A stretch of DNA of 64,000 nt from the IMG/VR virus record IMGVR_UViG_3300030419_007306, positions 1-64,000 of that record. One strand, written 5' to 3'. Under the pieces are notes generated by a model. That model did not search any database and was not told the DNA's origin. It was given only the letters and a program-made list of their open reading frames with translations. Positions within the stretch are counted from its first letter, which is position 1. Every line of letters begins with the position of its first letter. The position numbers and the translations under genes were made by a program. The stretch is from a virus. Shown here piece by piece: positions 1-64,000 of the stretch.

Positions 1-3000
1 TCTAAGCTTATGCTTGGTTATGATAAGCGATGGAGCGGAGAGTCTAGTGCTATTCCATTAACTGATGGCTCAGGCATTATGTTTAAAGAAGGTAATAATA
101 TAACTCTTGATTTTAATAACAGCGATGGTTCTGGTATTATTACCATAAATTCTTACCCTCCCAGCGGAGATAACTTTACAACTATTTCTGCTCGTGGAGA
201 CACTGGTTATACTTGGACAAGTCAGAATGATATTATAGCTGATGGAAACTCAGATACATTATCCATAATTACTGGAACAGGAATCAGATTAGATACCGAC
301 GCAACCAAGGATGCTATTAGGATATCTGTCAGTGGAGAAGTGATTGAAGGCACTGGCACAATGAGTCGCTTAAAGCTAGGTGCTCAAGATGGAGCTGGGC
401 TACAGCAGCTAGGAGACGGCTCTGGCCTGTTCTTTGCCGCTGGCGATAACATGACCATTTCGCTAACAAACAACGATGCTGGTAGCGGTATTCTTACGTT
501 TGCTGCGACACGACCAAGTGGAAATGCAATCACAACAGTTTCTGCAGGGGGCGATGCTGGATACACTTGGACAAGCCAAAATGATATTGTGGCAGACGGA
601 GCTGCAGACACACTGTACGTGGTTGCTGGCACAGGAATTAGATTAGACACCGATGCAACTAACGATGCAATAAGATTTTCTGTTAGCGGAGCGCTTCCTC
701 TTGCTACTCATCCCGCTACTAGTCCAGCTAGTTCTTCTGACAATAGCACTAATACTTTTATTCAAGACATTACGCTTGATGCATATGGACATATAACAGC
801 CATTGGAACTAATGAAGTTGGAAGTGGTAACTTTGCTCCTGCTTCTGCTTCTGGAACTATGAGCCGATTGAAACTTGGTGCTAGCGACGGACTTAATCTG
901 CAACAGCTAGGAGATGGTTCTGGTCTATTCTTCGCTGCTGGCGATAATATGACTATTACGCTAACTAATAACGATGCGGGTAGTGGAATTATTACATTTG
1001 CTTCTAGTGCTACTGGAAGTACAGCAACAAGTGGTAATGCGTTTACAACAATTTCTGCTGGTAGAGACTCTGGTTATACTTGGATAACTACAAACGATGT
1101 AGTTGCCGAAAGTGACGCCGATACTCTGTCTTTAGTAATGGGTACTGGTATCAGGATAGATACGGACGCTAGTAATGATGCTATAAGGGTTTCTATAAGT
1201 GGGGCCCTTCCTTTCGCTACTCATCCGACTATTAGTGCTGCTTCATCATCTACAGGCAATGCTGGAAATACATTTATACATAATATTACTGTAGACACCG
1301 CCGGTCATATCACTGCTATCGGTACTGATGTATTGCCTAGCGGAAATTCATTCAAGAACGTTGTTGTTGAAGGAGATGTGGGCTATACTTGGACTCACAC
1401 AAATACTATTGCTTCTTCTGCGGACGCAGAGAATTTAAAGATTATACATGGTACAGGAATTAGGATAGATACTGATGCAAGTCTTAATGCTATTAGAATA
1501 TCTTCAAGCGGCGATAGTGGTGATGCAAGGTCTGTTTCAGGAGATACCGACGATGCTGTTATTACATGGAAGACTAGCGACGACACTTTTGTTGCTGAAT
1601 CTAACCTAACATACAATGGTACTACATTGAAAGTAGCTGGTTTGCAGGGCAACAACCCAGGTGTTCCATTTATCGAATCTGACGGAATTATATATGGTTC
1701 TGGAATTGCAGCTGGACCTTCTGGTTTAAGAATAGCTGGCGTAGCGGTGACTTCAACAGCAACTGAACTTAACTATGTTGATGGCGTTACGTCTGCAATT
1801 CAAACCCAACTAGACACCAAAGGCTCTGGAACAATGAGTCGTCTGAAGGTTGGTGCAAGCGATGGCCTTCCTCAGCTTCAGCAGCTAGGAGACGGTTCTG
1901 GCTTGTTCTTCGCTGCTGGCAGCAACATGACTATTACCCTAACAAATAATGATGCCGGTAGTGGTATCCTTACATTTGCTTCAACCGCAAGCGGAGGTGG
2001 TACTGCAACCAGTGGAAATGCGTTCACAACAATTGCTGCCGGTGGAGATACTGGTTATACATGGACAAGCCATAACGATGTTGTGGCGGTAAACGATGCA
2101 GATACGCTGAAGTTAGTTGCGGGAAGCGGTTTAAGGTTAGATACTGACGCTAGCAGCAAAGCGATAAGATTTTCAGCGAGTGGAGATTATGCTACGGTAG
2201 CAAGTCCTACATTTACTGGAACGATTACTATAGGTAGTGCTGAAATCAGCGAGACCGAATTAGAAATACTTGATGGTGCTACGCTTACTACAACAGAATT
2301 GAACTATGTTGATGGAGTTACATCAGCCATTCAAACCCAATTGGATGCTAAGGGTTCTGGAACAATGAGTCGCCTTAAGATTGGGGCTAGTGATGGGTTG
2401 CCTCAGCTACAGCAACTGGGCGATGGTTCGGGTATATTCTTTGCTGCTGGAGATAACGTAAGTGTTACTCTTACAAATAGCGATGCTGGTAGTGGTATTG
2501 TAACGATAGCGTCTGCTCATCCAAGTATTAGCGCTGCCAGTACTTCAGATAATGGTGGCAATACGTTTATTCAGGATATTACGCTAGACGGCAATGGGCA
2601 TGTCACCGGAATTGGAACAAATACCATTCCAAGTGGTAATTATCATGCCGTTATTGATGCATCTAATAGACTAGACGCTTCTTTGATTGGGGCAAATGGA
2701 AATGTGTCAAATACCGAATATGGCTACCTTGCAAGTGTAAGCTCTGATATTCAAACTCAATTAGATGCCAAGGGTTCTGGTACGATGAGCAAGTTGCATA
2801 TTGGTTCTACAACTCAGGTTGACCCAACTCAAATCAGCCTTGGGGATGGGTCAGGCCTATTCTTTGCTGCTGGTTCGAATATGACCGTTACCACGACCAA
2901 TACAGATGGCTCTGGTGTGGTGACTTTTGCTTCCACAGGTGGTAGCTCAGTTTCTTTTGGTTCTGACAATCAGATACCTTACATGAACGGTGACGGTGAT

Positions 3001-4152
3001 GATTTCGACTACGAGTCTAATTTAACGTGGGGTCATGCCACCAACACGTTGAAGATAGATGGAGATATCGAAATAGCTGCGAAGGTTTTCCATAAGGATG
3101 ATTCTAATACCTTCCTCCACTTTGTTGGTGCCGACGATTTTCGTATTGTCGCTGGCGGTAAGGAGTATCTCTCAGTAACCCACGGCGACACTGAGGTTTG
3201 TCTCAATGAAGGTGGTGAAGCCCATGATTTTAGAATTGAAGGTGACACTAACCAGAACTTGTTCTTTGTTGATGGCTCCACGGATAGAGTGGGCATCAAT
3301 ACAAATGCTCCGGGTCAGCTTTTCGACATTAGCAATACCCTTACGTATGACGGAACTACATTAAAATTAGCTGGCTTACAAGGCAACAATCCCGGCGTTC
3401 CATTCATTGAGTCTGATGGAATCATCTATGGCTCAGGTATTTCTGCTGGCCCGTCTGGTCTTAGGATTAATGGCACCGCAGTAACAGCAACAGCAGCAGA
3501 ACTTAACATCATGGATGGTGGAGCAACGGTTACTACGCCAACAGTGGCAGGCGCCGATGCCTTTGTCATGAATGATGGCGGAACCATGGCTCAGGTTGAT
3601 ATAGATAATGTAGACACCTATTTATCTGCAACAACCAAAACTTTAACAAATAAAACTTTAACTAGTCCGACGATAACTAGCCCAACTATTACGGGAACTA
3701 CAAATCTTGCCTCTGGTGTTATCATTGGTGTTCCAAGCACTGAAAGTTCGGATGGTTATAGCCTTGAAGTTGCTGGTCAAATTAGAGCATCCGGTGTTGT
3801 TGTTGCTCCTATCACAGCTTCTGATGCAGCTACAGTTACGTTTGACCTTAAACAATCAAACTTCCATATGCTGACTTTAGCTCGTTCTAGTACAACCTTA
3901 GTGTTTGCTGACGCAAAGCCAGGACAAAGATTTTTAACTAGACTGACCCAAGACAGTACTGGAAGTCGTGCTGTGGTTTGGCCCGGTGGAATTTCATGGG
4001 CAAGGGCAGCTGGAGTAGGAACTCCTCCTCCTCTTAGTACCACAGCAGCTCATTCAACTATGTACGGTTTTGTCTGCACAAGTGGTGTGGGTGCTACTAT
4101 GTATTACGACGGATTTATTATTGGTAGTGGTATACAAGGCACTTCAACATAA
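1..4152 (+). CDS. Repeat-built tail fibre or appendage protein (5' end outside window)
   Basis: At least 1380 residues. The frame is open from base 1 with no stop before the first ATG at 10, so the gene probably begins to the left of the window. The protein is made of diverged blocks that each open with a GTMSRLKLGA-like string followed by QQLGDGSGLFFAAGDN and a TLTNNDAGSG turn. Between them lie ELNYVDGVTSAIQTQLD linkers, which are common in phage tail fibres. It is rich in Gly, Ser, Thr and Asp, with no signal peptide or enzymatic motif. The last 120 residues, from about 1260, form a distinct non-repeated domain, as expected for a receptor-binding or trimerising tip. The downstream genes are virion genes. 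A role as tail fibre or side appendage is inferred from composition and context; a capsid-decorating fibre is the alternative. Confidence 0.7.
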   Translation, partial: SKLMLGYDKRWSGESSAIPLTDGSGIMFKEGNNITLDFNNSDGSGIITINSYPPSGDNFTTISARGDTGYTWTSQNDIIADGNSDTLSIITGTGIRLDTDATKDAIRISVSGEVIEGTGTMSRLKLGAQDGAGLQQLGDGSGLFFAAGDNMTISLTNNDAGSGILTFAATRPSGNAITTVSAGGDAGYTWTSQNDIVADGAADTLYVVAGTGIRLDTDATNDAIRFSVSGALPLATHPATSPASSSDNSTNTFIQDITLDAYGHITAIGTNEVGSGNFAPASASGTMSRLKLGASDGLNLQQLGDGSGLFFAAGDNMTITLTNNDAGSGIITFASSATGSTATSGNAFTTISAGRDSGYTWITTNDVVAESDADTLSLVMGTGIRIDTDASNDAIRVSISGALPFATHPTISAASSSTGNAGNTFIHNITVDTAGHITAIGTDVLPSGNSFKNVVVEGDVGYTWTHTNTIASSADAENLKIIHGTGIRIDTDASLNAIRISSSGDSGDARSVSGDTDDAVITWKTSDDTFVAESNLTYNGTTLKVAGLQGNNPGVPFIESDGIIYGSGIAAGPSGLRIAGVAVTSTATELNYVDGVTSAIQTQLDTKGSGTMSRLKVGASDGLPQLQQLGDGSGLFFAAGSNMTITLTNNDAGSGILTFASTASGGGTATSGNAFTTIAAGGDTGYTWTSHNDVVAVNDADTLKLVAGSGLRLDTDASSKAIRFSASGDYATVASPTFTGTITIGSAEISETELEILDGATLTTTELNYVDGVTSAIQTQLDAKGSGTMSRLKIGASDGLPQLQQLGDGSGIFFAAGDNVSVTLTNSDAGSGIVTIASAHPSISAASTSDNGGNTFIQDITLDGNGHVTGIGTNTIPSGNYHAVIDASNRLDASLIGANGNVSNTEYGYLASVSSDIQTQLDAKGSGTMSKLHIGSTTQVDPTQISLGDGSGLFFAAGSNMTVTTTNTDGSGVVTFASTGGSSVSFGSDNQIPYMNGDGDDFDYESNLTWGHATNTLKIDGDIEIAAKVFHKDDSNTFLHFVGADDFRIVAGGKEYLSVTHGDTEVCLNEGGEAHDFRIEGDTNQNLFFVDGSTDRVGINTNAPGQLFDISNTLTYDGTTLKLAGLQGNNPGVPFIESDGIIYGSGISAGPSGLRINGTAVTATAAELNIMDGGATVTTPTVAGADAFVMNDGGTMAQVDIDNVDTYLSATTKTLTNKTLTSPTITSPTITGTTNLASGVIIGVPSTESSDGYSLEVAGQIRASGVVVAPITASDAATVTFDLKQSNFHMLTLARSSTTLVFADAKPGQRFLTRLTQDSTGSRAVVWPGGISWARAAGVGTPPPLSTTAAHSTMYGFVCTSGVGATMYYDGFIIGSGIQGTST
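355..2935 (+). repeat. Five tandem diverged repeat modules in the fibre gene
   Basis: Module starts (GTMSRL or GTMSKL) are seen at 355, 853, 1828, 2359 and 2779. Each is followed by about 35 conserved residues with the core GDGSGLFFAAG. Spacing varies because different linkers are inserted. The copies differ at many synonymous sites, so they are old duplications kept at protein level. Confidence 0.85.
1612..3519 (+). repeat. Long duplicated linker pair in the fibre gene
   Basis: About 58 residues at 1612-1785 recur at 3346-3519 with few changes. Both contain GLQGNNPGVPFIESDGIIYG followed by a PSGLRI string and end in a TELNYVDG- or AELNIMDG-like turn. The coordinates given span from the first copy to the end of the second. 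The copies flank the non-repeated segment 2936-3345. Confidence 0.85.
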
Positions 4153-4167
4153 TAGGATTATAAGTTA

Positions 4168-4725
4168 ATGACACAATACGCAAGACCAGATTCTGATATT
4201 AGTGGCGCTGGTGATTGGAATCCGGGTGATGATAGCGGTGGTTCGCCAGAAGACTTGTATGCAACAATAGATGAATCTTCTGCTGACGATAATGATTATA
4301 TTAGCGCTACAGATGATTCTGGAGAGGGGACAACTTGTGAAGTTGGATTGTCTAATGTAACTGACCCAAGCAACCATTCAAATCACAAGGTAAAAGTTAG
4401 AGCAAAAAGCGACTATGGGAGTGGGGTTTCATTAGTGATTAAGCTAATGATGGGTAGCACTGAAATTAGTAGCGATACAGTCACTTTGAGCGACTCCTAC
4501 CAGCTTTTTGAACCTGCCGCGCTTACTAATGGAGAAGCAACAAACATAGGTGGCCAGTCTGGTTATAATGATTTAAGACTGCGTTTTACTTATACTGATG
4601 ACAACTTCGACGGTGATGAGGTTTTCATTTCACAAGCTTATGTTGAATTTCCAGACGCTGCTGCTGCTGCTCCTGCTGCTGAGCCAGATTTGCCAGGAGC
4701 GGCATTTTTAATGTTTGTCGATTAG
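4168..4725 (+). CDS. Small putative virion appendage protein, unrecognised
   Basis: 185 residues, acidic, rich in Ser, Asp and Gly. The middle looks beta-rich (residues 60-155, with alternating hydrophobics such as VSLVIKLMMGSTEIS). An Ala-Pro run (AAAAAPAAEPD) leads to the short hydrophobic end GAAFLMFVD. That ending resembles the C-terminus of the gene at 6228 (KLKYILFAD), which may point to a shared docking tail. AGGA lies 10 bases before the ATG. It sits between the fibre gene and a connector-like gene, so a virion role is inferred from position only. The beta-sandwich-like centre might be a carbohydrate-binding or decoration fold, but no family was recognised. Confidence 0.5.
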   Translation: MTQYARPDSDISGAGDWNPGDDSGGSPEDLYATIDESSADDNDYISATDDSGEGTTCEVGLSNVTDPSNHSNHKVKVRAKSDYGSGVSLVIKLMMGSTEISSDTVTLSDSYQLFEPAALTNGEATNIGGQSGYNDLRLRFTYTDDNFDGDEVFISQAYVEFPDAAAAAPAAEPDLPGAAFLMFVD

Positions 4726-4769
4726 TTAGGTGTATAACTATCTGGAAAACACCTTAAAAGGAGTTATTT

Positions 4770-5306: not shown

Positions 5307-6214
5307 TGGCAATAGATATAATTAATACAAAAAAGGGTGGCACAAACCAACATAATATAAAGGTTGGTACGCCAGTTGTACAAGCTCCCATCAAAACTTT
5401 TGGGACAAATAATTTTGTTGATGAAGACCAATATACTTCTTATACAAGAGAGTCTGGTATTCATCCGTATGCTCATGATAAAATTAACGCCAAATATGAT
5501 ATTAGATTTGATGACCCAGCATATTATGGAGGAGGCGGACTAGTAAGAGATTTGGCAGCTTCCTATAGGCTTGATGAAACTGTTGGCGTAAGGATAGACC
5601 GGTCTGGAAATAAAGTTCATCTGACAGACAATAATACGGTTGGTTATGCCACAGGAAAGGTTGGAATCGCCGCTGACTTTACAGAAGGTAATAGTGAGTA
5701 TCTGAGCGCTGCTAATGCAAGTCTCGGAAGCTTGAGTCCCGGAAGCACAGATTTTTCAATTTCTTTTTGGATTTACTTTAAAAGCTCTGGTTTTACAGGA
5801 CAACAATTTGTTGGCGGAATTTGGAAGCCGACAGATAATCATAGAGAATGGTTGTTGTTATATAACGCAACCGCAGATGGAGACAATAAGCTAGGCTTTT
5901 ATACTTCAGCCAATGGCTCAGCAGAGACAAAGGTGAAAACAGACGCCCTTTCTCACAGCACATGGTATCATATAGTCATTCTTCATAACAAGACGGGTGG
6001 AACAAGAACAATTTATCAAGATACTGTGGCCAAGGGTAGTGATAGCAATATTACAATAAATCAGGGAACTGGAGATTTTCAATTAGGAAATGTTCAAGAA
6101 TCTTCAGATTATTTTAGTGGATATCTAGATGAATTTAATATGTGGAGCAAGGTATTATCAACCGATGAGATTGCCACATTATACCATGGCGGTAACGGAA
6201 AGCACGTCAGATAG
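5306..6214 (+). CDS. LamG/concanavalin-like lectin fused to a phage attachment module
   Basis: 302 residues in two parts. Residues 1-75 are clearly homologous to the whole 76-residue protein at 6804 (shared VVQAP-KTF-TNNF, DEDQYTSYTR and RFDDP-YY strings). Residues 80-300 look like a LamG-like jelly roll: ASYRLDETVG start, a DFSISFWIYF strand, an HSTWYHIVILHNK strand, and the closing SGYLDEFNMWSKVLSTDEI, which is the typical LamG C-terminal signature. LamG domains usually bind sugars or other surface ligands, so this is probably a surface-exposed virion adhesin. The N-terminal module is inferred to be the part that docks onto the particle. Confidence 0.75.
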   Translation: MAIDIINTKKGGTNQHNIKVGTPVVQAPIKTFGTNNFVDEDQYTSYTRESGIHPYAHDKINAKYDIRFDDPAYYGGGGLVRDLAASYRLDETVGVRIDRSGNKVHLTDNNTVGYATGKVGIAADFTEGNSEYLSAANASLGSLSPGSTDFSISFWIYFKSSGFTGQQFVGGIWKPTDNHREWLLLYNATADGDNKLGFYTSANGSAETKVKTDALSHSTWYHIVILHNKTGGTRTIYQDTVAKGSDSNITINQGTGDFQLGNVQESSDYFSGYLDEFNMWSKVLSTDEIATLYHGGNGKHVR

Positions 6215-6227
6215 GAGAAAATTATAA

Positions 6228-6788
6228 ATGGCTAATGAAATAAAAGTAACTATAGGGTGCAGTTATATAAATGGTAGGCTTAGAGAACAATTTGGAACTC
6301 CCTTAGAGCTTCAAAATGTTCCAAGGCTAGCGTCAGATAGTTCTAAACATTTAGACACGCTTTTTGTAGCCAGCGGAGTTGACCAGTCTACGCTGGGAGT
6401 TGATGCTGGTGTAGTTACCGCCGGAACCGGCATTACTGAGCTAGACACTTATAATAACTCAAAGGTTGCAACGGCAGGCTGGTTGTTTATGCAAAACATA
6501 GAGGCTGTTCCGTCAGGAGATTATATAGAATGGGGGCCTCGGGTTACATACAACGCCGCCAATGCTATAAGCATGACTGGTCCAGATGGCGTTGCTATGG
6601 ACCTTCAAAGTAATAATGGAGATGTAGTTATGGTTCCTTTTGGGAGGTTGGAAGCAGGAGAATCCGCTGCAATGAGAGTTACCCCCAGCGGTCTAAATAT
6701 TGGAATTGTAGCTGGTTCAGGATTATCTACTATAGCGACCCCAGGAAATCCAAGCGCTAAATTAAAATATATACTTTTTGCAGACTAA
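6228..6788 (+). CDS. Putative virion appendage or decoration protein, unrecognised
   Basis: 186 residues, preceded by AGGAG. The N-terminus, KVTIGCSYINGRLREQFG, is followed by a beta-rich middle with GTGITELDTYNNSKVATAGW and a jelly-roll-like stretch around residues 100-165 (DYIEWGPRVTYNAANAI, MVPFGRLEAGESAAMRV). The C-terminus KLKYILFAD resembles that of the protein at 4168. It lies between the LamG-fused protein and its short paralogue. The pattern of small beta proteins here suggests a set of capsid- or neck-attached appendages. No enzyme motif is visible. Confidence 0.45.
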   Translation: MANEIKVTIGCSYINGRLREQFGTPLELQNVPRLASDSSKHLDTLFVASGVDQSTLGVDAGVVTAGTGITELDTYNNSKVATAGWLFMQNIEAVPSGDYIEWGPRVTYNAANAISMTGPDGVAMDLQSNNGDVVMVPFGRLEAGESAAMRVTPSGLNIGIVAGSGLSTIATPGNPSAKLKYILFAD

Positions 6789-6803
6789 TGGAGAACAATA
6801 AAA

Positions 6804-7034
6804 ATGGCTAATGACATTAATAATGCTAAATCCGGCGCTACGGATAATACCGGTAACATTAAAATTGGAACCGTTGTTGTTCAGGCTCCTATGAAAACAT
6901 TTACTACTAATAATTTTATAAACGAAGATACATATACAGCTTATACAAGGCCTTCTGGGACACATGTATATGGCATAGACAAGATTCAGGATAAATATGA
7001 TGGTAGATTTGATGACCCAACCTATTACTCATAA
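6804..7034 (+). CDS. Short stand-alone paralogue of the LamG protein's N-terminal module
   Basis: 76 residues, aligning over its full length with residues 1-75 of the LamG-fused protein at 5306 (both begin MA-DI-N and end RFDDP-YY). It carries no extra domain. It is probably the bare particle-binding module, competing with or complementing the lectin-bearing version on the virion. GGAG lies upstream (6790-6793). Confidence 0.6.
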   Translation: MANDINNAKSGATDNTGNIKIGTVVVQAPMKTFTTNNFINEDTYTAYTRPSGTHVYGIDKIQDKYDGRFDDPTYYS

Positions 7035-7043
7035 GGTGCATGA

Positions 7044-7574: not shown

Positions 7575-8227
7575 TGAAAGCTAATTTTAAATTATTGGAA
7601 TCGCAGGCTGAAATCAATAAAAAAATTGTTAAGCAGCTCGCAACTTCCTTAAACTCTGCTGTTATGGGAGCCGTGCCGACAATAGCTAGTCAGATTAAAA
7701 ATTTGGTTAGAACCGCGATAACTAGCGCTCCAGAATATAATGAGCTTTCAGGAGGTTCTTTACAAGCTGAACTTGGGGTTCCTTCTAGTGAAAGTAGGCT
7801 CGCAAGAATATTGGATGTTTGGCTGGGAAGTATGCAGATTTCCAAAAAGCCTGTTAGAGCATCTGGAAATAGGATTGTTGGTGGTATAAGCATTAGTATG
7901 ATTAAAGATGATTTCTCGGATGTTTTAGGTACTGCTGAAGCTTCATATACAACAGCAAAAGGAATAAGAATTCCTTGGTTAAGATGGCTTCTTATAGCTG
8001 GAGATGAAACTAAATTGGTTGCAGATTATGTCTTTACAGAAGATACTAGCTTTGGCAATAGTAGAACTGGACTAGGCTTGATGAGAAGTCAAAGGGGTGG
8101 AAGATGGCATGTTCCCAGAGAGTTTGCTGGCACAATAAAAAATAACTTCGTTACTAGGGCATTATCTAAACTTGAGACTCAGGTTATAAATATAATGCAA
8201 ACTGAAATAGCAAAAAGGCTAAAATAG
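7574..8227 (+). CDS. HK97 gp10-like neck/tail-component candidate
   Basis: 217 residues from the ATG at 7574, chosen because it forms a TAATG junction with the previous stop; an in-frame ATG at 7556 would lie inside that gene. It has long N-terminal helices (LLESQAEINKKIVKQLATSL), a middle beta region around residues 95-190, and an amphipathic C-terminal helix (LSKLETQVINIMQTEIAKRL). This layout resembles HK97 gp10-type neck or minor tail proteins that precede the tail terminator, but I see no diagnostic sequence. The stop TAG overlaps the following GTG start. Confidence 0.4.
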   Translation: MKANFKLLESQAEINKKIVKQLATSLNSAVMGAVPTIASQIKNLVRTAITSAPEYNELSGGSLQAELGVPSSESRLARILDVWLGSMQISKKPVRASGNRIVGGISISMIKDDFSDVLGTAEASYTTAKGIRIPWLRWLLIAGDETKLVADYVFTEDTSFGNSRTGLGLMRSQRGGRWHVPREFAGTIKNNFVTRALSKLETQVINIMQTEIAKRLK

Positions 8228-9222
8228 TGGCGATTAAAGATTATACAAAATTCAAGGGTTTAAATAATATTGGCGATAGCCAATTCATGATAATTCTTGA
8301 AAACAATTTAAAAGCTTTTTGCGACTGGAGTTTCTTAGGAGTAGGAGCCTGGTTCGATGTAACCATTCCTACTTCAGGAGCGTTTGGGGGAACTTTCCAT
8401 CAATTAAGACTGGTTGATGACCCCGCTTACGATGCAGGACAAGTTTGGGAAACTCCTCGTAAAGATTTAGTTTGGGAGACTGGGGTTTCGTATCCTAGTG
8501 GATTGGGAACTATACAACCTATACAGATTTCTGGTGTATTTGTAGATGGGACTACTGCGGCTAATTTTTACGGCCCAGGAGACTCAACTTATGGACACCA
8601 TATAGATTATCCTTTGGGCAGAATCGTATTTGACAGTGCTATAGACACCACCAGTACTGTTTATATGAATCATAGCTATCGTTGGGTACAGGTTTATTTA
8701 GCGGACAAGGCTCCGTGGTGGCAGGAACTACAATATAGGTCATTTAGAGTTGATAGTAGCCATATTTCCCAAACCGGCTCGGGAGATTGGTCTATAGGTG
8801 GCCAACATAGGGTCCAGCTTCCTGCTGTCGTAATTGAAGCTGTTCCTCGGAGACATTCTGAGGGATACGAACTTGGCAATGCTAATTTAAGGACTTATCA
8901 GGACGTATTATTTCATGTAGTAGCAGAATCAAAATGGCAAAGGAACCAACTTGTTGACATATTCAGCATGCAGCAGGACAAGTCCATTTATTTGTTTAAT
9001 ACTAATAAAGTGGCAGAAGAAGGAGTATATCCCCTAGATTATAGAGGTATGCTTGCAAGCGGCAATCCCTTAATGTATCCAAATTTAGTAGCTACTTCTG
9101 GTTATCGCTGGAAGGAGTGTAGGTTTGGCCAAACGACCTTATCTGAGGTCCAATCGCCTCATCCTGGGTTACACGAAGGAATTGTTAGGACCACTTTTGA
9201 AGTAATAGTTGGCAATACATAA
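8227..9222 (+). CDS. Putative tail-terminator or tail-completion protein
   Basis: 331 residues, GTG start at 8227 overlapping the previous stop (TAGTG). It is a mixed beta protein rich in Trp and Tyr (FCDWSFLGVGAWFDVTI, SYRWVQVYLADKAPWWQEL). The middle has a QLPAVVIEAVPRR strand and a helix-rich part, DVLFHVVAESKWQRNQLVDI. There is no enzyme motif. It directly precedes the tail-tube candidate, where tail terminators normally lie, but it is longer than typical terminators. Sheath proteins are larger and differently built, so I do not call it one. Confidence 0.35.
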   Translation: MAIKDYTKFKGLNNIGDSQFMIILENNLKAFCDWSFLGVGAWFDVTIPTSGAFGGTFHQLRLVDDPAYDAGQVWETPRKDLVWETGVSYPSGLGTIQPIQISGVFVDGTTAANFYGPGDSTYGHHIDYPLGRIVFDSAIDTTSTVYMNHSYRWVQVYLADKAPWWQELQYRSFRVDSSHISQTGSGDWSIGGQHRVQLPAVVIEAVPRRHSEGYELGNANLRTYQDVLFHVVAESKWQRNQLVDIFSMQQDKSIYLFNTNKVAEEGVYPLDYRGMLASGNPLMYPNLVATSGYRWKECRFGQTTLSEVQSPHPGLHEGIVRTTFEVIVGNT

Positions 9223-9303: not shown

Positions 9304-10518
9304 ATGGCAGCTAATAATAGAATTTTCTATGCCTGTCAACAAGTTGGTTTAAAACCAGATGGTAGTACAGATAACTTTGCTGCGATTCATGGCGTGCAGA
9401 GTGTTGGTATTACCACTAACTTTAATTTAAGCCAAGTGTTTGAACTAGGCCAAATTTCGATTTATGAAAACATTGAAGATATTCCTGACGTGGAAGTTTC
9501 TATGACTAAGGTTCTGGATGGGACGCCGCCGATTTATTTGCTTGCAACTAAAGGTTCGAGTAGCCCAACCCTTTCCGGTCGTCAAAACCAAAAGAGTGTA
9601 TTTGCGCTGGGTATTTGGCCCGATACAAATGACTCTGCCAATGGCAGTCCAAACTCTCAAGTAGAATGCTCTGGGATGTTTGTTTCCTCTTTGGCTTATA
9701 ACTTCCCACTGGAAGATAATTTCACTGAAGATGTTACGCTTGTGGGTAATCATAAAATATGGCATAGGGATACTCGCGTTATCTCTGGTGGTGCTACGGC
9801 AAATGCCTATGGCGCACCACAAACCCCAGACTTTACCGGCGCCTTTACTGACGCTGGCGAAGACCCCAGTGGTTTAACAACTGGCGGTGGCGTCAATAGA
9901 CGTGAAAATCTTAACTTTGGTAATTTCAGAGACGTTGAGTTTACCGATGAGGCCAGTGGTCTCTCTGATAAGAATTATCATCGTGACCCTGATGTTTGTT
10001 GCTTCCCGAAAGAAATTCATGGAATTTCTTCTTCCGGCACAAACAACAAAGATGCCAACGGTAACTTCGGCGCTCATATGAGCAACATCACCGTTTCGGC
10101 TGACTTGGGTAGAGAGCAAATCTTGGAACTGGGTCGTAAGGCTCCGTATCATCGTTATGCTACCTTCCCGATTGAAGTCACGACGGAAATTGAAGTTACG
10201 GCGATTAGTGGTGACTTGATTTCCGCAACCGAAGAAGGTATTCTCAGCGGAACAAGTGATTCATGCACTGCCGATTCTGGTAACTTAACTGATGCCACGA
10301 TTCGCATTGCAAGCTGTGAAGGTACTAGAATTTACTTGGGCAAGAAGAATAAGCTTGCTTCTGTGAACTATGCGGGAGGAGATGCTGGTGGAGGTAATGC
10401 AACCGTCACCTACACATTCACCACGTTTAATGATTTTACTGTCATGCATCAATATGATGTTGATGGTAGTGCATCGACTTGGTGGAGTGAAAGAGGCACC
10501 TATTTAGCTCCTGCCTAA
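9304..10518 (+). CDS. Probable major tail-tube protein
   Basis: 404 residues with a strong ribosome-binding site. The N-terminal part resembles tail-tube proteins that form rings: VQSVGITTNFNLSQVFELG, then an EDIPDVEVSMTKVLDG strand typical of the tube beta-sandwich. Residues 300-380 look like an added beta domain. Codon choice is visibly richer in C-ending codons than in neighbouring genes (for example gaccccag, ggcgcctt, ttcccgatt), as expected for a highly expressed gene. It is framed by a putative promoter region and a hairpin and lies just upstream of the chaperone-position genes and tape measure, which is the canonical place for the tube. A major capsid protein is less likely here. Confidence 0.65.
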   Translation: MAANNRIFYACQQVGLKPDGSTDNFAAIHGVQSVGITTNFNLSQVFELGQISIYENIEDIPDVEVSMTKVLDGTPPIYLLATKGSSSPTLSGRQNQKSVFALGIWPDTNDSANGSPNSQVECSGMFVSSLAYNFPLEDNFTEDVTLVGNHKIWHRDTRVISGGATANAYGAPQTPDFTGAFTDAGEDPSGLTTGGGVNRRENLNFGNFRDVEFTDEASGLSDKNYHRDPDVCCFPKEIHGISSSGTNNKDANGNFGAHMSNITVSADLGREQILELGRKAPYHRYATFPIEVTTEIEVTAISGDLISATEEGILSGTSDSCTADSGNLTDATIRIASCEGTRIYLGKKNKLASVNYAGGDAGGGNATVTYTFTTFNDFTVMHQYDVDGSASTWWSERGTYLAPA

Positions 10519-10526
10519 TTGATTGT

Positions 10527-49511: not shown

Positions 49512-49820
49512 TTAATTTTCACTTGGTTCTGAAAAATTTCTACGTAGATTTATAATATACTGCTGTAGCGCATTTCTTTGAGCTTTTAACTTATCTATTT
49601 CATTACAGAGTAGGTCTTGATTAATTTGATGGGCGTATTTTTCGAAACTGTTATATTGATTATATTTCAAAACCTCGTTTTCTTTTTTAAAGCGTCGAAT
49701 CGCAAGGCTTGCAGAATAAATAGCATCAGCAATTAAGTCTGGTCCCGACAACATAGGGTCACAAAAATCTTTTAGCCAAACATCTACGGCGTCTTCTAGG
49801 TCTTCATAACTAAATTGCAT
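49512..49820 (-). CDS. Small helical protein, unrecognised
   Basis: 102 residues, almost all helical: SYEDLEDAVDVWLKDFCDP, then IADAIYSASLAIRRFKKENE and a coiled-coil-like NEIDKLKAQRNALQQYIINL. It abuts guaC and overlaps the glycosylase gene by 11 bases. It might be a small subunit or regulator of one of those enzymes, but nothing in the sequence says so. Confidence 0.45.
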   Translation of the reverse strand: MQFSYEDLEDAVDVWLKDFCDPMLSGPDLIADAIYSASLAIRRFKKENEVLKYNQYNSFEKYAHQINQDLLCNEIDKLKAQRNALQQYIINLRRNFSEPSEN

Positions 49821-50352
49821 TTTTTGCCAACCTTATACATTCTAAAGCTATATCCATTTTGTTTCTGCCGGTTTGCATTAGATAAGAGGGGTGATAGCAC
49901 GGCACGACTAACGACGGCAGATATTCGAGCTGATGTTCTTTATTTATATAGTCGGCTAATTTGAAAGTCTTTTTTAATCTCAATAATAAGCCAGTGGGAG
50001 TTTTGCCAAGTGTTAAAATTACCTTTGGATTTATGCTTTTCATCTCAGTCCAGAGCCATCTTTTACATGTCGCAATTTCTTCGGAGGTAGGAGCGCGATT
50101 CTTTTTGCCTGCGACTGGCCGACATTTGACAACGTTGGTTATATAGATATTATCTCTGTCGATTCCACATTCGTCAAGCATCTTTGTTAGAAGGTCTCCG
50201 CATCTGCCAATAAACGGTTCCGCCAACAAGTCTTCGTCTGCGCCGGGAGCCTCTCCGATAATCATTAAACTAGAGGGGACTGGACCCTTTCCGACTACTA
50301 CATTTGTTCTTGTCTCACACAACCCACACAACATGCAATTAATATCAGTCAT
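49810..50352 (-). CDS. Family-4-type uracil-DNA glycosylase
   Basis: 180 residues. GEAPGADED (33-41) and CYHPSYLM (152-159) are the two active-site motifs. Cysteines at 6, 9, 77 and 96 give the spacing of the 4Fe-4S cluster in family 4. It excises uracil from DNA. A phage carrying it may be protecting its DNA from deaminated or misincorporated uracil, or destroying host DNA containing uracil. It is coupled to the glutamate dehydrogenase gene by ATGA. Confidence 0.85.
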   Translation of the reverse strand: MTDINCMLCGLCETRTNVVVGKGPVPSSLMIIGEAPGADEDLLAEPFIGRCGDLLTKMLDECGIDRDNIYITNVVKCRPVAGKKNRAPTSEEIATCKRWLWTEMKSINPKVILTLGKTPTGLLLRLKKTFKLADYINKEHQLEYLPSLVVPCYHPSYLMQTGRNKMDIALECIRLAKNAI

Positions 50353-51551
50353 TTTTGAAAATATCCTTTATTTCCTAAACATTCATTAGCTTCTCCAATT
50401 CTTTTAAGAGCAAGCGAGTATGCTGCTGCGCGCATGGAAATACCATGTTCTATACATCTCTCAAAAACTTTTTGAGTTGCTTGTCTTATTTTATTTCTTA
50501 ATTGTAGATTAACTTCATCTTCCTGCCACTCTTGGGCCTGTCTGTTCTGGAGCCATTCAAAATATGAAACTATAACACCGCCAGAATTTGCCAATATATC
50601 TGGAACAACAAATACATTTTTATTTTCTAGGATTAAATCTGCTTCATGGCTTGTTGGACTATTTGCCAACTCAAGAACAATCTTGGCTTTTATTTTATCT
50701 GCATTGCTTTCAGTTATAACATTTTCTATGGCTGCTGGTACTAATATTTCTACGGGAAGTTCTAGTAGCTCTTCGTTTGTTATTTTTTCACCCTTGATAT
50801 TGTTAGGGTCGATTCCTTCTGGGTTATACACTCCCCCTGCGACATCAGAAACAGCAACGATTTTAAGACCTTCTTGTTGGCATTTGCTGGCAAAGTGATA
50901 GCCAACATTTCCAAGTCCTTGAATTGCTATAGAAGCCTGCTTATTAGATTGGAGTCTGTTCAAAATATAATTTAAAACGTAATATCCTCCATATCCAGTT
51001 GCTGTTGTTCTTCCTTTTATGCCCCCCAGAGGAACTGGTTTTCCTGTAATTATATCTTTAGGATTTCCTCTCTTGATTCTTTTGTATTCAGAATACATCC
51101 ATCCCATCACTATTTCGTCAGTTCCCATGTCGGGAGCAGGAACATCGGTGTCTGGTCCGATAAAATCACAGAAGGTTGCTATATATGCCTTGCTTAACCT
51201 TTCTAATTCTCTATGGGATAATTTGCTAGGGTCAACCGCAACTCCTCCCTTAGCTCCTCCAAATGGAACTTTGGCAACTGCGCATTTGAATGTCATAAGA
51301 AAAGCTAAGGTTTCTGCGTGCTCCCTGTCTACGGAAGGGTGGTATCTTATACCTCCTTTTGTTGGTCCTAAAGTATCATCGTACTGACAACGATATGCCC
51401 TATATGTTTTAAGAGTTCCGTCGTCGTGTCTCATAGGCAGAGTGGCTTCCATTGTTTTGTGGGGATACTGTAATTTTTCCCAACTTTCTGGGTCTATGTC
51501 GGCATATGGTAGCGCAAGATTTAAATACTTCTTTACTGAACTTAAAAGCAT
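50349..51551 (-). CDS. Glutamate dehydrogenase (Glu/Leu/Phe/Val superfamily)
   Basis: 400 residues, typical length. TLGPTKGGIRYHP, FKCAVAKVPFGGAKGGV (Lys89 and Lys101) and VPAPDMGTDEIVMGW (Asp141) form the substrate site. IQGLGNVGYHFA (210-221) is the NAD(P) loop, and ANSPTSHEAD plus VPDILANSGGVIVSYFEW complete the family pattern. Every key residue is present, so it is likely active. It interconverts glutamate with 2-oxoglutarate and ammonia. This is a rare cargo for a phage. It sits between the two polymerase parts with tight coupling on both sides. Confidence 0.9.
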   Translation of the reverse strand: MLLSSVKKYLNLALPYADIDPESWEKLQYPHKTMEATLPMRHDDGTLKTYRAYRCQYDDTLGPTKGGIRYHPSVDREHAETLAFLMTFKCAVAKVPFGGAKGGVAVDPSKLSHRELERLSKAYIATFCDFIGPDTDVPAPDMGTDEIVMGWMYSEYKRIKRGNPKDIITGKPVPLGGIKGRTTATGYGGYYVLNYILNRLQSNKQASIAIQGLGNVGYHFASKCQQEGLKIVAVSDVAGGVYNPEGIDPNNIKGEKITNEELLELPVEILVPAAIENVITESNADKIKAKIVLELANSPTSHEADLILENKNVFVVPDILANSGGVIVSYFEWLQNRQAQEWQEDEVNLQLRNKIRQATQKVFERCIEHGISMRAAAYSLALKRIGEANECLGNKGYFQK

Positions 51552-53461
51552 TCTACATCACCTTCTTTCAGTATACTTTTTACTCCCATAATCTTATCCA
51601 ACATGGCCACTCCCAAGACATCAAATTTAATCATACCGATGTCCTCCATGTCCTGCATCTCTAAACCGCCTACAAGCTGCTTTGCTTTAGTGTCTAAGAC
51701 CATTGGGCAGATTTCGTGTAGTGGATGAGGAGATATTACAACCCCTGCAGCGTGCTTGCTTTGTGCTCTCTTGGTGCCCTCTAACCGTATTGCCTGCTCA
51801 AATCTTTTAGCCAGTCTTCCTTGCAAATTTCCTTGTTCATCAATATAACACCATTCTCTAAGTTGTTCGGGTTTATTTTCTAGAGCCCATTTTATAACAG
51901 AAGACTCCCCTGTTTCTTCTAGCATTTCTTGTAATTCATCAGCAACTGCTGCTTTATCTGGAATGTGTTGGGTTATCAAATTCATTTCATCAAAAGATAT
52001 GCCACCATAAGCCCTTAAGACATCTTTAATCGCCCCACGACCCATCATGGTTTGGAACGTAATCATTTGTCCCACTTTATCATGACCATATTTTTCTTTG
52101 ATGTAGTCAATTATTTCATCTCTTTTTGAAACTGGAACGTCCATATCTATATCCGGCATAGAAACCCTACCGTCAGTGTTTCTTCCGGCATTATAAAATC
52201 TTTCAAAAATAAGACCGTATTTGATAGGGTCTATTGAAGTGATACCTATAAGATATGACACAAGACAGCCTGCTGCTGAGCCTCTGCCAGGACCAGGCAG
52301 CCAGCCATTTTTTCTAACATAGTCAATTATATCTGCAACTATTAAAAAATAACTAGACAAACCAGCACCCTGAAGAACTTCTAATTCATGCTTTACTCTT
52401 TCTGAATAAGCCTCGGTTTTTTCTTTTTCAACCTTTCCTGCTATTTTGTCTTGCCATCCTTGTCTGCATAGGTCTCTCAGGTGTTCGTCTGGCCCTTTGT
52501 CACAAAAGAACGGAGGCAAGATTGGTGCGTGCAAGATATTATATTCTTCGCACATATTTGCTATTTCAAGAGTGTTGGCTAACTCTTCTTCTGTATGAAT
52601 TTCGACCATCTCTTCATAAGAAGGTATGTGGTATTTATCAGAGCGAAAGAATCCAGACAGAGGAACCTTTTCGTTTTTTGTCATCTTCTGTTTAATAGCT
52701 GGAACCGTAGTCTCCAGCATATTGCAGATTAATATCCGTTGGTCATCCGCATTTTCTGGGGCTGGGTAATGAGCATCAGGAGTAGCCACACAGGGAATAC
52801 CTGTCTTCTTAGAAATATATCTCAGTCCCTCTGCTAGTATTTGTTGAATTGGTAAAATCTCTTTATCTATTAACTGAATCTCGATATAGAAATTTCCTTT
52901 TCCAAATACTTCTTGATGTTTAAGGGCCAGTTGGCTAGTGTGCTCGACCCAATCTGGTCTAATTAGTGTTTTAACTTCTTCATAAGATAGGCCATCCATT
53001 TCCTTTATGGCTCCGTCTATGAATAGTGCTTCGGCTAAATCAGAGCCTAGATGACCACTGAACGAAACGAGATTTCCATCACAAAATTCTGATAGCTGTT
53101 CTAAGCTAAGCCTTGGTTTTCTATAGAAGAAGTCTGGCTTGTTAGATTCTGAAGTTATCCTGATTAACTGTTTCCATCCAGCTAAATTCTTGGCTAAGAT
53201 AACAAGATGATTTAATTTAGCATTCTCTTTATTTCTTTCGCTCGCATGTTCTTTGCATATGTATAATTCACACCCTAGTATTGGCTTAAGATTATTCTTT
53301 TTCATCTCTTTGGTGAAAGCAACACTTCCAGAGATATTGCCATGGTCTGTAAGAGCGCAGCCAGCCAACCCTAGGCTTTTAATACGACCAGCAATTTGAG
53401 ACGGACTACTTAGCCCATCCAGCAAACTATAATGACTATGACAATGCAATGGAAAATACAT
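51542..53461 (-). CDS. DNA polymerase III alpha (DnaE), N-terminal part of a split gene
   Basis: 639 residues. The PHP domain (1-270) has HCHSHYSLLDG, LTDHGNISG, ILGCELYI and ATPDAHY, so the metal site looks nearly intact. The palm has GPGRGSAAGCLVSYLIGI and the catalytic MPDIDMD (Asp437, Asp439), and the third Asp lies in MIKFDVLGV (about 613). The gene stops shortly afterwards at GDVECF, before the fingers. The rest of the polymerase is the gene at 46112, five genes downstream. No intein sequence occurs at this end. It is preceded by an unrecognised small gene and overlaps the dehydrogenase gene by 10 bases. Confidence 0.9.
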   Translation of the reverse strand: MYFPLHCHSHYSLLDGLSSPSQIAGRIKSLGLAGCALTDHGNISGSVAFTKEMKKNNLKPILGCELYICKEHASERNKENAKLNHLVILAKNLAGWKQLIRITSESNKPDFFYRKPRLSLEQLSEFCDGNLVSFSGHLGSDLAEALFIDGAIKEMDGLSYEEVKTLIRPDWVEHTSQLALKHQEVFGKGNFYIEIQLIDKEILPIQQILAEGLRYISKKTGIPCVATPDAHYPAPENADDQRILICNMLETTVPAIKQKMTKNEKVPLSGFFRSDKYHIPSYEEMVEIHTEEELANTLEIANMCEEYNILHAPILPPFFCDKGPDEHLRDLCRQGWQDKIAGKVEKEKTEAYSERVKHELEVLQGAGLSSYFLIVADIIDYVRKNGWLPGPGRGSAAGCLVSYLIGITSIDPIKYGLIFERFYNAGRNTDGRVSMPDIDMDVPVSKRDEIIDYIKEKYGHDKVGQMITFQTMMGRGAIKDVLRAYGGISFDEMNLITQHIPDKAAVADELQEMLEETGESSVIKWALENKPEQLREWCYIDEQGNLQGRLAKRFEQAIRLEGTKRAQSKHAAGVVISPHPLHEICPMVLDTKAKQLVGGLEMQDMEDIGMIKFDVLGVAMLDKIMGVKSILKEGDVECF

Positions 53462-53462
53462 A

Positions 53463-53678
53463 TTAATCTTCCCTAAATCTAGCGAACCAATTTGAAACTG
53501 CCTTTTGATTTTCGGACTTTACAGCCTCTACTATATAGATAATGTCCTGAAGAGACTCTATATACATATTTAATATTTTTATATATGAAGACTTGTCTAT
53601 ATATTCATTTGGGTCGTTTAATACCTTGGCCTTTGCTGCTATTAGCTGCTTTACTCTTTGTTTTATTTCAGATTTCAT
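53463..53678 (-). CDS. Small helical protein upstream of the polymerase
   Basis: 71 residues, helical and charged: KQRVKQLIAAKAKVLNDPNE, then YIKILNMYIESLQDIIYIVE and a final SNWFARFRED. It is coupled by ATGA to the upstream nuclease gene and lies two bases before the polymerase start. It may be a small replication accessory; no family was recognised. Confidence 0.4.
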   Translation of the reverse strand: MKSEIKQRVKQLIAAKAKVLNDPNEYIDKSSYIKILNMYIESLQDIIYIVEAVKSENQKAVSNWFARFRED

Positions 53679-54718
53679 TCTATACTGCCAGGTGCTTTAT
53701 ATTTTGCAACGTCATGATTAGGTGCCGTATAATCTTCCACAACCTTCTGCATGCCCTTGCTTTCTATTTCGTATCTAACCTGCTCACATTTGCTCATCGT
53801 TTGGCCATACGGGGTTACTTTCCCATGTCTTGTTTCTAACATCGGGTGTACGTCTGTGTCCTCAAAGGTAGTCATACCTTGGTGGCAAATTTTTGAACAT
53901 TTCCAAGACCTTTTAAGCCTAGGAATTCTAGTGCTCTTAATGTCTTCGAATTTTTTTCTTATCATTGCCTTAGTTTCTGGCATATCTTTTTTGGTAAAGC
54001 AGATGGAAAAAGGACCTCCGTCATTTATAAAATAAATAGTAACCATTATTTGCTCTGCTTCTGGGTAAAGCTGAGATGCGGCATAATGATAAATTCTCAA
54101 CTGAGGGTCCTTGGTAAGCTTGGCAAAAGTTTTTTCTTCACCTGTCGCCCAGTCAAGCCTGCGTCCGGTTTTCCAGTCTACTATTTCGTAAAACCCATCG
54201 TCTACTTTGGTTATAAGGTCTATGGTCCCTTTCATGGATAATGTACCACGGATTTTTTCACCGTTCAAGTCATATTCATACTTGGCCCAAGGTTCGTCAA
54301 TCTCAAAATCAAAGTGAGGCTCAGCTTCTACTACATGTCTTTTTCTGGGGTCAAACATTCCATCGTTAAATTTTACAGCTTTCCAAGTCCAGTTTATACA
54401 GTCTTTTAAGTCTCTGGGCTTCCAGTCATGATAGCTAAAAGCTGTAGAATAATATGTGTATATTCGTTCCGTAATTTCATTCAGGTCGTAACGACTGGAT
54501 GACACCTCTCCGAGTATGTCGTCTGTGTAGAAACTAAGGCCATCTTGCTTGGCCTTTTTCGCAAGAGCCATGACCTCAAGTGCCTTATGAACTATGGTCC
54601 CCTTGTCTGCCTTTAGCCCACCCTTTCCTCTCCACCCAAGCACATATTCCATAAAATATTGCTGAGGACACATCGAGTGACAATTGAAACTTGAAGAACG
54701 AAAATATGTGATTATAAT
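53675..54718 (-). CDS. PD-(D/E)XK nuclease (RecB/Cas4-like), probable ATT start
   Basis: 332 residues from the first ATG (54673), but about 15 more with a likely ATT start at 54718. The extension reads TYFRSSSFNCHSMCPQQYF, the conserved N-terminus of this family, and AAGGA lies about eight bases upstream of the ATT, whereas the ATG has no Shine-Dalgarno. Catalytic residues (ATG numbering): His29, Asp152 in GTIDLI, Asp166-x-Lys168 in EIVDWKTG, and Gln191/Tyr195. These match 5'-3' exonucleases that resect DNA for recombination. Cysteines in SWKCSKICHQ may help bind a metal or Fe-S cluster. Confidence 0.8.
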   Translation of the reverse strand: MIITYFRSSSFNCHSMCPQQYFMEYVLGWRGKGGLKADKGTIVHKALEVMALAKKAKQDGLSFYTDDILGEVSSSRYDLNEITERIYTYYSTAFSYHDWKPRDLKDCINWTWKAVKFNDGMFDPRKRHVVEAEPHFDFEIDEPWAKYEYDLNGEKIRGTLSMKGTIDLITKVDDGFYEIVDWKTGRRLDWATGEEKTFAKLTKDPQLRIYHYAASQLYPEAEQIMVTIYFINDGGPFSICFTKKDMPETKAMIRKKFEDIKSTRIPRLKRSWKCSKICHQGMTTFEDTDVHPMLETRHGKVTPYGQTMSKCEQVRYEIESKGMQKVVEDYTAPNHDVAKYKAPGSIE

Positions 54719-54720
54719 GA

Positions 54721-61954: not shown

Positions 61955-61956
61955 TG

Positions 61957-62322
61957 TTAAAAAGGAACCTTTTCTTTTTCTGTGGTTTTTGCAGCTCCGG
62001 TTTCTTCGTCTTTTTTACCGCCGCCAAGGAAATTAAAATTGTCTGCTACTATTGAATAGCTAGTCCGTTTATTTCCCTCTTTGTCTTGCCACTCGTCCTG
62101 TTCCATTCTGCCACTAAGAGAAATCCACCTACCCTTTTCAGCATATTCTACAAGAGTTTCTGCAGGCTTTCCCCATAGGCTAACATCAAAAAAATTAGTT
62201 TTCTTCAATGTATTATTAGCAATTCTAAACGAAGCTACACTCTTGCCATTGGAAGTAGTCTTAAGCTCAGGGTCTCGGACAAGCCTTCCAGAAACAGTCA
62301 CAACATTAATATCAGCCATCAC
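61957..62322 (-). CDS. ssb: Single-stranded DNA-binding protein, copy 2
   Basis: 121 residues (start at the first ATG of ATGATG; the second is also possible). NVVTVSGRLVRDPELKTTSN, VASFRIANNTLKKTNFFDVS and GRWISLSGRMEQDEWQDKEG are SSB OB-fold strings, and the tail ends EKVPF. It lies in the replication unit between the ribbon protein and phoH. It is clearly diverged from the SSB at 45612, which has its own promoter. Confidence 0.9.
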   Translation of the reverse strand: MMADINVVTVSGRLVRDPELKTTSNGKSVASFRIANNTLKKTNFFDVSLWGKPAETLVEYAEKGRWISLSGRMEQDEWQDKEGNKRTSYSIVADNFNFLGGGKKDEETGAAKTTEKEKVPF

Positions 62323-63023
62323 AAACCTCCTTCGTTATCATCGTTAAGTTTATCTAAAATTATTGGAATCAATGGATTTCGGACAATATCTTCCTTTTTT
62401 AGATACATTACGCCGAGGTTGTCCACCCCATCCAATCTCGTCAAACACTTGGAGAACGCCCCTCTTTGTCTGTAGGGAAGGTCGGACTGGGTATCGTCTC
62501 CTGTTATTACTAATTTAGACTCCATGCCCATTCTTGTCAAGAGCATTTTGAGTTGTTTCATGGAAAGGTTTTGACATTCGTCGGCTATTATAAAACAGTT
62601 GTGAAAATTACGGCCTCTCATAAGACCAATAGGAGCCACAACCAGCTTACCTTGGTTCTTCCAGTTATTTATTTGTTCGTGAGAAACGAAATAGTTTAAC
62701 TCATCAAAAACCGGAAGAAGATAAGGATGAAGTTTTTTGTCTGCGTCTCCGGGTAGATAGCCAATTTTTTCACCTGCCTCTACGACAGGCCTAGTGATTA
62801 TTATTCTATCTACCTGCCCAGAAACCAGCGCTTCAATAGCACAACCAACAGCTATGTGCGTTTTGCCGCTTCCAGCAGGACCATCACAAAATGTTAGAAT
62901 ATTATTCTTTATAGATTTAATATATTTTTTTTGATTAGGACTTCTTGCCGATAGCTTTTTCTTGAGATAAACACCTTCTTCTTGCTTCTCTTTTGTTTGA
63001 TATTTAGGTTTTCTTCTTGCCAT
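62319..63023 (-). CDS. phoH: PhoH-like ATPase
   Basis: 234 residues from the ATG at 63023; an upstream ATG at 63056 would extend further into the reductase gene. A basic N-terminal tail, then CDGPAGSGKTHIAVGCAIEA (Walker A), DRIIITRPVVEAGEKIGYLP, NCFIIADECQNLS (Walker B) and LVITGDDTQSDLP. These are the PhoH hallmarks; related proteins have RNA-helicase-like or ATPase activity. PhoH is common in phages, especially marine ones, and its role there is not settled. Confidence 0.9.
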   Translation of the reverse strand: MARRKPKYQTKEKQEEGVYLKKKLSARSPNQKKYIKSIKNNILTFCDGPAGSGKTHIAVGCAIEALVSGQVDRIIITRPVVEAGEKIGYLPGDADKKLHPYLLPVFDELNYFVSHEQINNWKNQGKLVVAPIGLMRGRNFHNCFIIADECQNLSMKQLKMLLTRMGMESKLVITGDDTQSDLPYRQRGAFSKCLTRLDGVDNLGVMYLKKEDIVRNPLIPIILDKLNDDNEGGL

Positions 63024-64000
63024 TTTTCGGTACGCTAAAATCGACTTCGCAAGCACCGCCGCTGCATGCCCATTCCTGTTCAGCAGACGTGTTGTCTTCA
63101 GCCTCGGTTACATCGGTGTAGTCTACTTTCCTAAACGTTCTGATTAAATCCGAATATATTTTCCAATTATACACATCCTTTAGGCAGTGAGACAATTTTT
63201 TATAGTCTCCCTCAAAGTATTTTTCTGCAAACCTTCTGCATCTTGCTATAAAAGATTTCTTTCTTTTGTTTTCTTCTAACTCAGGGTCGTTTAAAATTGC
63301 GTCACAAGCGTCCCAAAGATTGTCTTTATAGTTTTGGAGACCAACGGTTATCAGTCCTGAGCACCATATAGCAGCATCGCCATACTCCCTGACTATTTCT
63401 CTGCTTGTATGAATAGTCACCATTGGTGCCTGCTGATAGTCCTTGTCTCCGCTTTGTGGAATAAGCGAAATCCCACAAAAGTATTTTCTATTTTTATAGA
63501 TAAAATTTGAAACCTCTGCCCATTCATCCGGCCTAACATTGATTGTATTAGATACATTGTGATTTAGCCAAGGCTTAGTACATCTATCGTTATTCTTTCC
63601 AGCCATGACCCAGTTTTGCTGAGTGCTTTTTACAATTTTAAGTAGTTCAAGAGCAGGCAGTTGGTTTTTTGTTTTTGCCCCATCAGGAACTTCAATTGGA
63701 AAGGTTATTACGTCGTCGGTATTATTTGCCGACCAAACAGATGCTTCACAGGCTTCTGGGTTTATTGATTTAAAATATTTATAAGGAGCCTCGTCTGTAT
63801 TTGCTTGAACTCTTCTTAAATATCTTTTGGCATGATGAGGATGAATGCCCGAAGAAGTTCCCAGCATACAGCTAGACGAGCCCTCTGGCTTGAGGCATGT
63901 TGTTCTTGCCGCAGGTTTTATCTTTATTTTCTTGGACAGTTGTTCATTCGTTTTATTGACAATCTTAGCACCCCTTTTTTGCGTGGAAGGGTTTAAAACT
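63004..64000 (-). CDS. nrdJ: B12-dependent (class II) ribonucleoside-triphosphate reductase, C-terminal part
   Basis: The frame stays open to the right edge, so the 5' part is outside the window. TTCLKPEGSSSCMLGTSSG is the class II active-site loop and is continued by IHPHHAKRYLRRVQ. The C-terminus carries CSGGACEVDF, the redox CxGGxC pair that reduces the active site. It converts NTPs to dNTPs using adenosylcobalamin, independent of oxygen. It heads the replication unit in the window. The internal methionine at 63867 is not a start, because conserved residues precede it. Confidence 0.9.
   Translation of the reverse strand, partial: VLNPSTQKRGAKIVNKTNEQLSKKIKIKPAARTTCLKPEGSSSCMLGTSSGIHPHHAKRYLRRVQANTDEAPYKYFKSINPEACEASVWSANNTDDVITFPIEVPDGAKTKNQLPALELLKIVKSTQQNWVMAGKNNDRCTKPWLNHNVSNTINVRPDEWAEVSNFIYKNRKYFCGISLIPQSGDKDYQQAPMVTIHTSREIVREYGDAAIWCSGLITVGLQNYKDNLWDACDAILNDPELEENKRKKSFIARCRRFAEKYFEGDYKKLSHCLKDVYNWKIYSDLIRTFRKVDYTDVTEAEDNTSAEQEWACSGGACEVDFSVPKNGKKKT

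Follow-up and report, generated by a model that had tools for sequence, protein, structure and literature searches.

Complete absence of GATC from a marine phage genome fragment and its association with a putative phage-encoded nuclease

The window analyzed here is a stretch of 64,000 bp, positions 1 to 64,000 of IMG/VR record IMGVR_UViG_3300030419_007306, which is a 69,206 bp genome fragment of a marine tailed phage. The record encodes a tail module, a split DNA polymerase III alpha, a DnaB-like helicase, a primase, RecA, SSB, PhoH and a ribonucleotide reductase. The tail module includes a 4,274-amino acid tape-measure-like protein (PhageMin_Tail) and a 404-amino acid protein (bp 9304–10518, plus strand) whose position suggests a tail-tube-like role. 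The latter was our marker for finding relatives and building a tree; searches of IMG/VR gave first 17 and then at least 80 viral contigs with a relative of it, and a search of 50,697 cultured-phage records returned no match to it. A conserved structural protein of the relative G009 is likewise unmatched in cultured phages.

The DNA polymerase III alpha-like gene lies in two halves between bp 46112 and 53461. Its N-terminal half (bp 51542–53461, minus strand) matches phrog_405 (E = 1.6e-162), and the homologue carries PHP and DNA_pol3_alpha domains. The intervening genes encode a proofreading-type exonuclease, a GMP reductase (bp 48432–49511), a family-4 uracil-DNA glycosylase (bp 49810–50352) and an archaeal/halophile-type glutamate dehydrogenase (bp 50349–51551). 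Adjoining the N-terminal half is a 71-amino acid ORF (bp 53463–53678, minus strand), followed by a PD-(D/E)XK exonuclease (bp 53675–54673, minus strand; PF12705, E = 2.8e-18; phrog_69). Comparison of gene order places the short ORF in a polymerase/exonuclease slot that holds a 181-amino acid restriction-fold protein in a CCWGG-less sister clade and a GATC-linked protein in pelagiphages (both below).

A PhoH-like gene (bp 62319–63056, minus strand) was the synteny anchor for comparison with the relative G025. An adenosylcobalamin-dependent ribonucleotide reductase is encoded at record bp 63004–65223, where the close relatives G002 and G004 carry genes of class I type at about the same position. 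Near the record end are genes for two secreted-type proteases, which are odd in a phage: one is a metzincin-like metalloprotease that has a twin-arginine-like leader, the other is trypsin-like (L001 bp 7659–8303 and 5887–6891, where L001 bp 3004 is record bp 63004). A tandem pair of DUF6071-like proteins (bp 34388–35928) occurs in none of the relatives read.

By direct count the window contains no GATC in its 64,000 bases, as a first-pass annotation made from the letters alone had claimed, and the remaining 5.2 kb of the record has none either. The window is expected to hold 233 sites from base composition and 154 from a second-order model, a figure that the missing sites themselves pull down; a first-order model gives 225 for the whole record. 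Our definition of site elimination is a count below 0.1 of expectation where at least 15 sites are expected, and GATC is eliminated in this phage (0 vs. about 225). Shuffling synonymous codons within genes, which preserves all proteins and per-gene codon use, restores 164 ± 9 sites to the window (minimum 137 in 400 shuffles). The loss affects all three reading frames of the window genes. Aspartate before C is always GAC (134 GAC, 0 GAT), again as had been noted, compared with 804 GAT and 451 GAC before other bases; none of the 185 isoleucine codons after G is ATC, which is used 153 times elsewhere; and the third frame, xGA-TCx, is also empty. The other four-base palindromes had been described as present, and all fifteen stand at 0.60–1.02 of expectation (CGCG is lowest), so composition is not the cause of the absence. 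Two features that the first-pass annotation did not mention are a halving of CCWGG in the window (40 observed, 84 expected) and the absence of GAGCTC (12 expected).

The same annotation had suggested examining related genomes, and there the absence recurs. Our family sample comprises 44 phage records, the larger of which were read whole. Sixteen contigs are GATC-less, with a summed 6 sites observed against 3,199 expected (a few of these, or of the carriers described below, retain 1–4 sites), and the other 27 contigs with enough expected sites all have GATC at 0.60 of expectation or higher, with none intermediate. Some members that keep GATC are without another motif, singly or in combination: CCWGG (0 of 98 expected in G022), GCGC (0 of 219 in G029), CCGG (0 of 139 in G009), GGCC (0 of 266 in G031) and GGWCC (0 of 73 in G013). 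On the tail-protein tree the GATC state takes 4 changes, compared with a mean of 11.4 when labels are shuffled. A CCGG-less group is nested within the GATC-less phages, and in it GATC has returned to normal frequency. With other motifs lost in GATC-normal sister phages, neither composition nor mismatch repair can be the general cause, which leaves two readings, host restriction or a phage-borne nuclease. An extreme case of palindrome loss is G038 (IMGVR_UViG_3300005613_000006; 172,878 bp), which has 0 of 595 expected GATC sites and is nearly free of about 30 six-base palindromes.

Comparing gene content within the family alone singled out no gene that every GATC-less contig has and every other contig lacks, most contigs being fragments. 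Two window genes were considered and set aside. The core nuclease at bp 37311–38084 (minus strand), with HTH, NUMOD3-like and DUF559/Vsr-like parts, was dropped as a specificity determinant since it occurs in relatives whichever motif they have lost. A 170-amino acid protein (bp 35922–36434, minus strand) is found only in GATC-less members (7 contigs), but its predicted fold is a single-strand nucleic-acid-binding one rather than that of a nuclease (best structural match MRP1/MRP2, E = 2.3e-5).

A small endonuclease-like protein is encoded by each of the three largest GATC-less members, G025, G028 and G038 (all at least 111 kb). Of the family contigs that reach 110 kb, 3 of 3 GATC-less and 0 of 5 GATC-normal ones have its gene, and a profile search of the other family contigs, which include five GATC-normal ones at least 126 kb long, did not find it. 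The protein has the conserved pattern FTTEVK-(H/Y)D...SGNIAIE...PSG..T.A; sequence searches gave no relative of solved structure, and its assignment as a putative nuclease rests on the conserved E-x-K and neighboring residues. Its activity, its GATC target and its purpose are inferred, and it may or may not prefer methylated DNA, as DpnI, Eco15I and NhoI do.

Remote homologues (28–55% identity) occur in unrelated phages, namely HMO-2011 (gp19), many pelagiphages, roseophage CRP-143, C75C1, C72C1 and Xanthomonas phage XacN1; the homologue in HTVC019P, gp20, sits between DNA polymerase and exonuclease. Every one of the carriers counted individually is without GATC: HMO-2011 (0 of 119 expected), C75C1 (0 of 110), C72C1 (0 of 118), S35-C6 (0 of 89), HTVC019P (0 of 53), HTVC011P (0 of 52), HTVC109P (0 of 59), CRP-143 (0 of 71) and, in the part read, XacN1 (0 of 122). 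Six IMG/VR loci with closer relatives of the gene also have none, and 78 of 80 further marine IMG/VR carriers have zero GATC (3 observed and 1,838 expected in sum over the 80). CTAG, AGCT, GTAC and TGCA are at zero in none of those 80. Carriers were found by similarity and related ones are not independent of each other, although the named carriers come from several phage groups and range in GC content from 0.32 to 0.52. A literature search found no paper that ties GATC loss in pelagiphages to a phage gene.

Phages without the gene keep GATC, and some of them share host strains with carriers. Six such phages, each read in part, have GATC at 0.50–1.6 of expectation (observed/expected: HTVC010P, 90/59; HTVC119P, 75/47; HTVC200P, 31/33; S28-C10, 69/48; CRP-125, 48/96; CRP-118, 110/86), and a profile search of the parts read found no homologue of the GATC-linked gene. 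Strain FZCC0023 is host to the carrier CRP-143 and to the non-carriers CRP-125 and CRP-118, HTCC7211 to the carrier HTVC109P and the non-carrier HTVC119P, and HTCC1062 to the carriers HTVC019P and HTVC011P and the non-carrier HTVC010P; in each case the non-carriers keep GATC. A phage-encoded GATC endonuclease predicts this contrast and host restriction does not. In HTVC119P, HTVC200P and S28-C10 the polymerase/exonuclease slot has an unrelated endonuclease-like gene, and none of the motifs is eliminated. In Votkovvirus pelagiphages an HNH-like endonuclease takes this slot instead (L350 bp 13053–13526, L433 bp 3877–4350 and L434 bp 16193–16705), and their genomes have lost no four- or five-base palindrome.

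A second gene shows a parallel association with CCWGG. In six CCWGG-less contigs a 181-amino acid protein with an invariant D65-x9-E75-x-K77 is encoded between exonuclease and polymerase. It matched no solved structure by sequence, but the fold predicted for it is that of a restriction endonuclease, almost all of the top-ranking Foldseek hits to its model being enzymes of this class (Eco15I, NhoI, BglI, PvuII, EcoRV and SfiI), although the matches are modest (best E = 4.4e-3, modest TM-scores, model pLDDT 74). The predicted fold and D-x9-E-x-K spacing would be shared with PvuII/EcoRV/BglI-type enzymes, from which the protein differs in having no detected sequence relationship to them, in being without a methyltransferase partner and in lying within a phage replication operon. 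All 47 IMG/VR loci that have this gene contain no CCWGG (639 expected in sum). Remote homologues (24–35% identity) are encoded by unrelated phages, Ruegeria phage RpAliso, ctYwJ313 and ctXG6705, and these too have no CCWGG (0 of 361 expected in the 140 kb of RpAliso read, at 61% GC; 0 of 72; and 0 of 31, respectively). A gene of this type was not found in some other CCWGG-less contigs (G001–G004, G029 and G030), so it is not the sole route to CCWGG loss.

The GATC-linked gene was not found in the window's 69,206 bp record, nor in the 13 of the 16 GATC-less contigs that are fragments. The distance from PhoH to the gene is about 10 kb in G025, whereas the window record stops about 6 kb beyond PhoH, which by synteny puts the expected locus about 4 kb past the record's end. 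G002 and G004 extend further than the window record and stop no more than about 2 kb from that locus; the remaining GATC-less fragments end before it. An attempt to bridge the missing locus through its ClpP-like neighbor recovered only the contig already known. From kinship and synteny we infer that the gene lies in the unsequenced part of the window phage's genome.

Profiles PF02086, PF00145 and PF01555 have no match in the window record or its GATC-less relatives, C5 or N4/N6 methyltransferase matches were found in only 1 of the 43 phage contigs searched (G031), and no Dam-type methyltransferase was found among the phage contigs tested. The GGCC-less G031 has one C5 and two N4/N6 methyltransferases together (C1:78482-84709). 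Among the carriers outside the family, the annotations of C75C1 and C72C1 list a DNA methyltransferase.

We think it probable that this phage lineage carries a site-specific endonuclease that cuts GATC, has no partner methyltransferase, and has been accommodated by purging the sites from the phage's own genome. The enzyme would cut GATC in host DNA, most likely starting its breakdown (or in the DNA of rival phages), and the gene neighborhood suggests that the fragments would feed the phage's exonuclease and nucleotide-recycling genes. The phage would be immune to its own cutter because no GATC remains in its DNA, and a protective methyltransferase would be unneeded. Relatives would carry like enzymes of other specificities, for CCWGG judging by the association above and for GCGC, CCGG and GGCC by analogy; with different enzymes in different relatives, the eliminated motif would switch as a whole along the tree. 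The association itself has no fixed direction: the gene could have forced the loss, or only phages already free of GATC could have kept it.

Virus-encoded endonucleases that break host DNA are familiar from T4-type phages and from the restriction enzymes of chloroviruses, which protect themselves by modified cytosine and by methyltransferases, respectively, whereas the protection proposed here is absence of the site. More broadly, we consider it rather more plausible than otherwise that phages widely carry stand-alone restriction-type endonucleases of at least two unrelated families (GATC- and CCWGG-linked), often in the same polymerase/exonuclease slot and needing no methyltransferase because the sites have been purged, such that a gene swap switches the lost palindrome and a missing motif tells of the phage's weapon, not of host defense.

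The main alternative is that host Type II restriction of GATC (MboI/DpnII/Sau3AI type) drove the loss and that the relatives tracked hosts with CCWGG, GCGC, CCGG or GGCC enzymes; we judge this possible but unlikely. Each eliminated short motif corresponds to a known Type II specificity, and several relatives are also without dozens of six-base palindromes, both of which are consistent with it. Host restriction specificities usually vary by strain, however, yet the GATC state persists across deep divergence in the tail-protein tree, and phages of a single strain differ completely in GATC, depending on which of them have the gene. There is precedent in non-temperate dsDNA phages, where elimination of Type II sites is established and the agent is the host enzyme (PMC6286503); the near-total removal of a Type II site is alike here, but in our case the absence tracks a phage gene instead of the host strain, and to this is added the all-or-none switching of motifs inside a single phage family. 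Haloviruses PH1, SH1 and HHIV-2 are likewise a related group completely without GATC, ascribed to host restriction (PMC3622292), but unlike here no viral nuclease is implicated. The first-pass annotation had read the absence as strong selection by a GATC-recognizing process and as a clue to the host. Strong selection stands, but a host restriction or DpnI-like system that gives away the host is not the best-fitting agent, given that the absence tracks a phage gene across unrelated phages and varies among phages of one strain; for the window phage itself host restriction may still apply. Host restriction probably acts on carriers as well, since many pelagiphage carriers are also without CCWGG, GCGC or GGCC.

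A Verrucomicrobiales metagenome-assembled genome (MAG), PBAL01, might be read as the signature of such a host: it encodes a methyltransferase that is Dcm-like, also in its target-recognition region, next to an HNH endonuclease (L251 bp 1405–3521), and it also holds the family contig L082, which is without CCWGG and GCGC. The binning of phage contigs is unreliable, however. L082, L078, L083 and L080 are placed in Verrucomicrobiales and SAR202 MAGs and a Heimdallarchaeota chromosome assembly, which is probably binning and possibly a hint of hosts. Comparison of the phage GMP reductase with Verrucomicrobiota genomes was uninformative on the host.

Another proposal, made for enterobacteriophages and phiX174, is that GATC is selected against by mismatch repair (Dam/MutH) or by Dam-linked regulation; here it is very improbable. 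GATC-free phages of Dam-positive hosts provide a precedent, and GATC counterselection in phiX174 and enterobacteriophages is linked to mismatch repair (PMC5014478, citing Deschavanne and Radman 1991). Absence or depletion of GATC is alike, but no other motifs are similarly lost there; Dam/MutH would affect only GATC, and it explains neither the complete loss of CCWGG, GCGC, CCGG or GGCC in GATC-normal sisters nor the normal GATC of same-host phages. A gene of the MutH/Sau3AI family (PF02976) was found in 0 of 40 phage records. An artefact of composition, assembly or library, for which we found no support, can practically be dismissed given the codon-shuffle control, the normal counts of other palindromes and the recurrence of the absence across many independent metagenomes and cultured isolates.

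It is usual to take missing restriction sites in phages for traces of host restriction and to guess the hosts from them. Should the phages' own cutters be responsible, such inference would fail for many marine phages, including pelagiphages; host DNA cutting by such phages without a methyltransferase would be explained; hypothetical proteins such as HTVC019P gp20 and HMO-2011 gp19 would gain a function; and matching absent palindromes to orphan genes would be a route to new restriction-type enzymes. CTNAG is fully absent from ctXG6705 (0 of 171 expected) and HTVC010P (0 of 98) and is a candidate motif for another phage-encoded enzyme.
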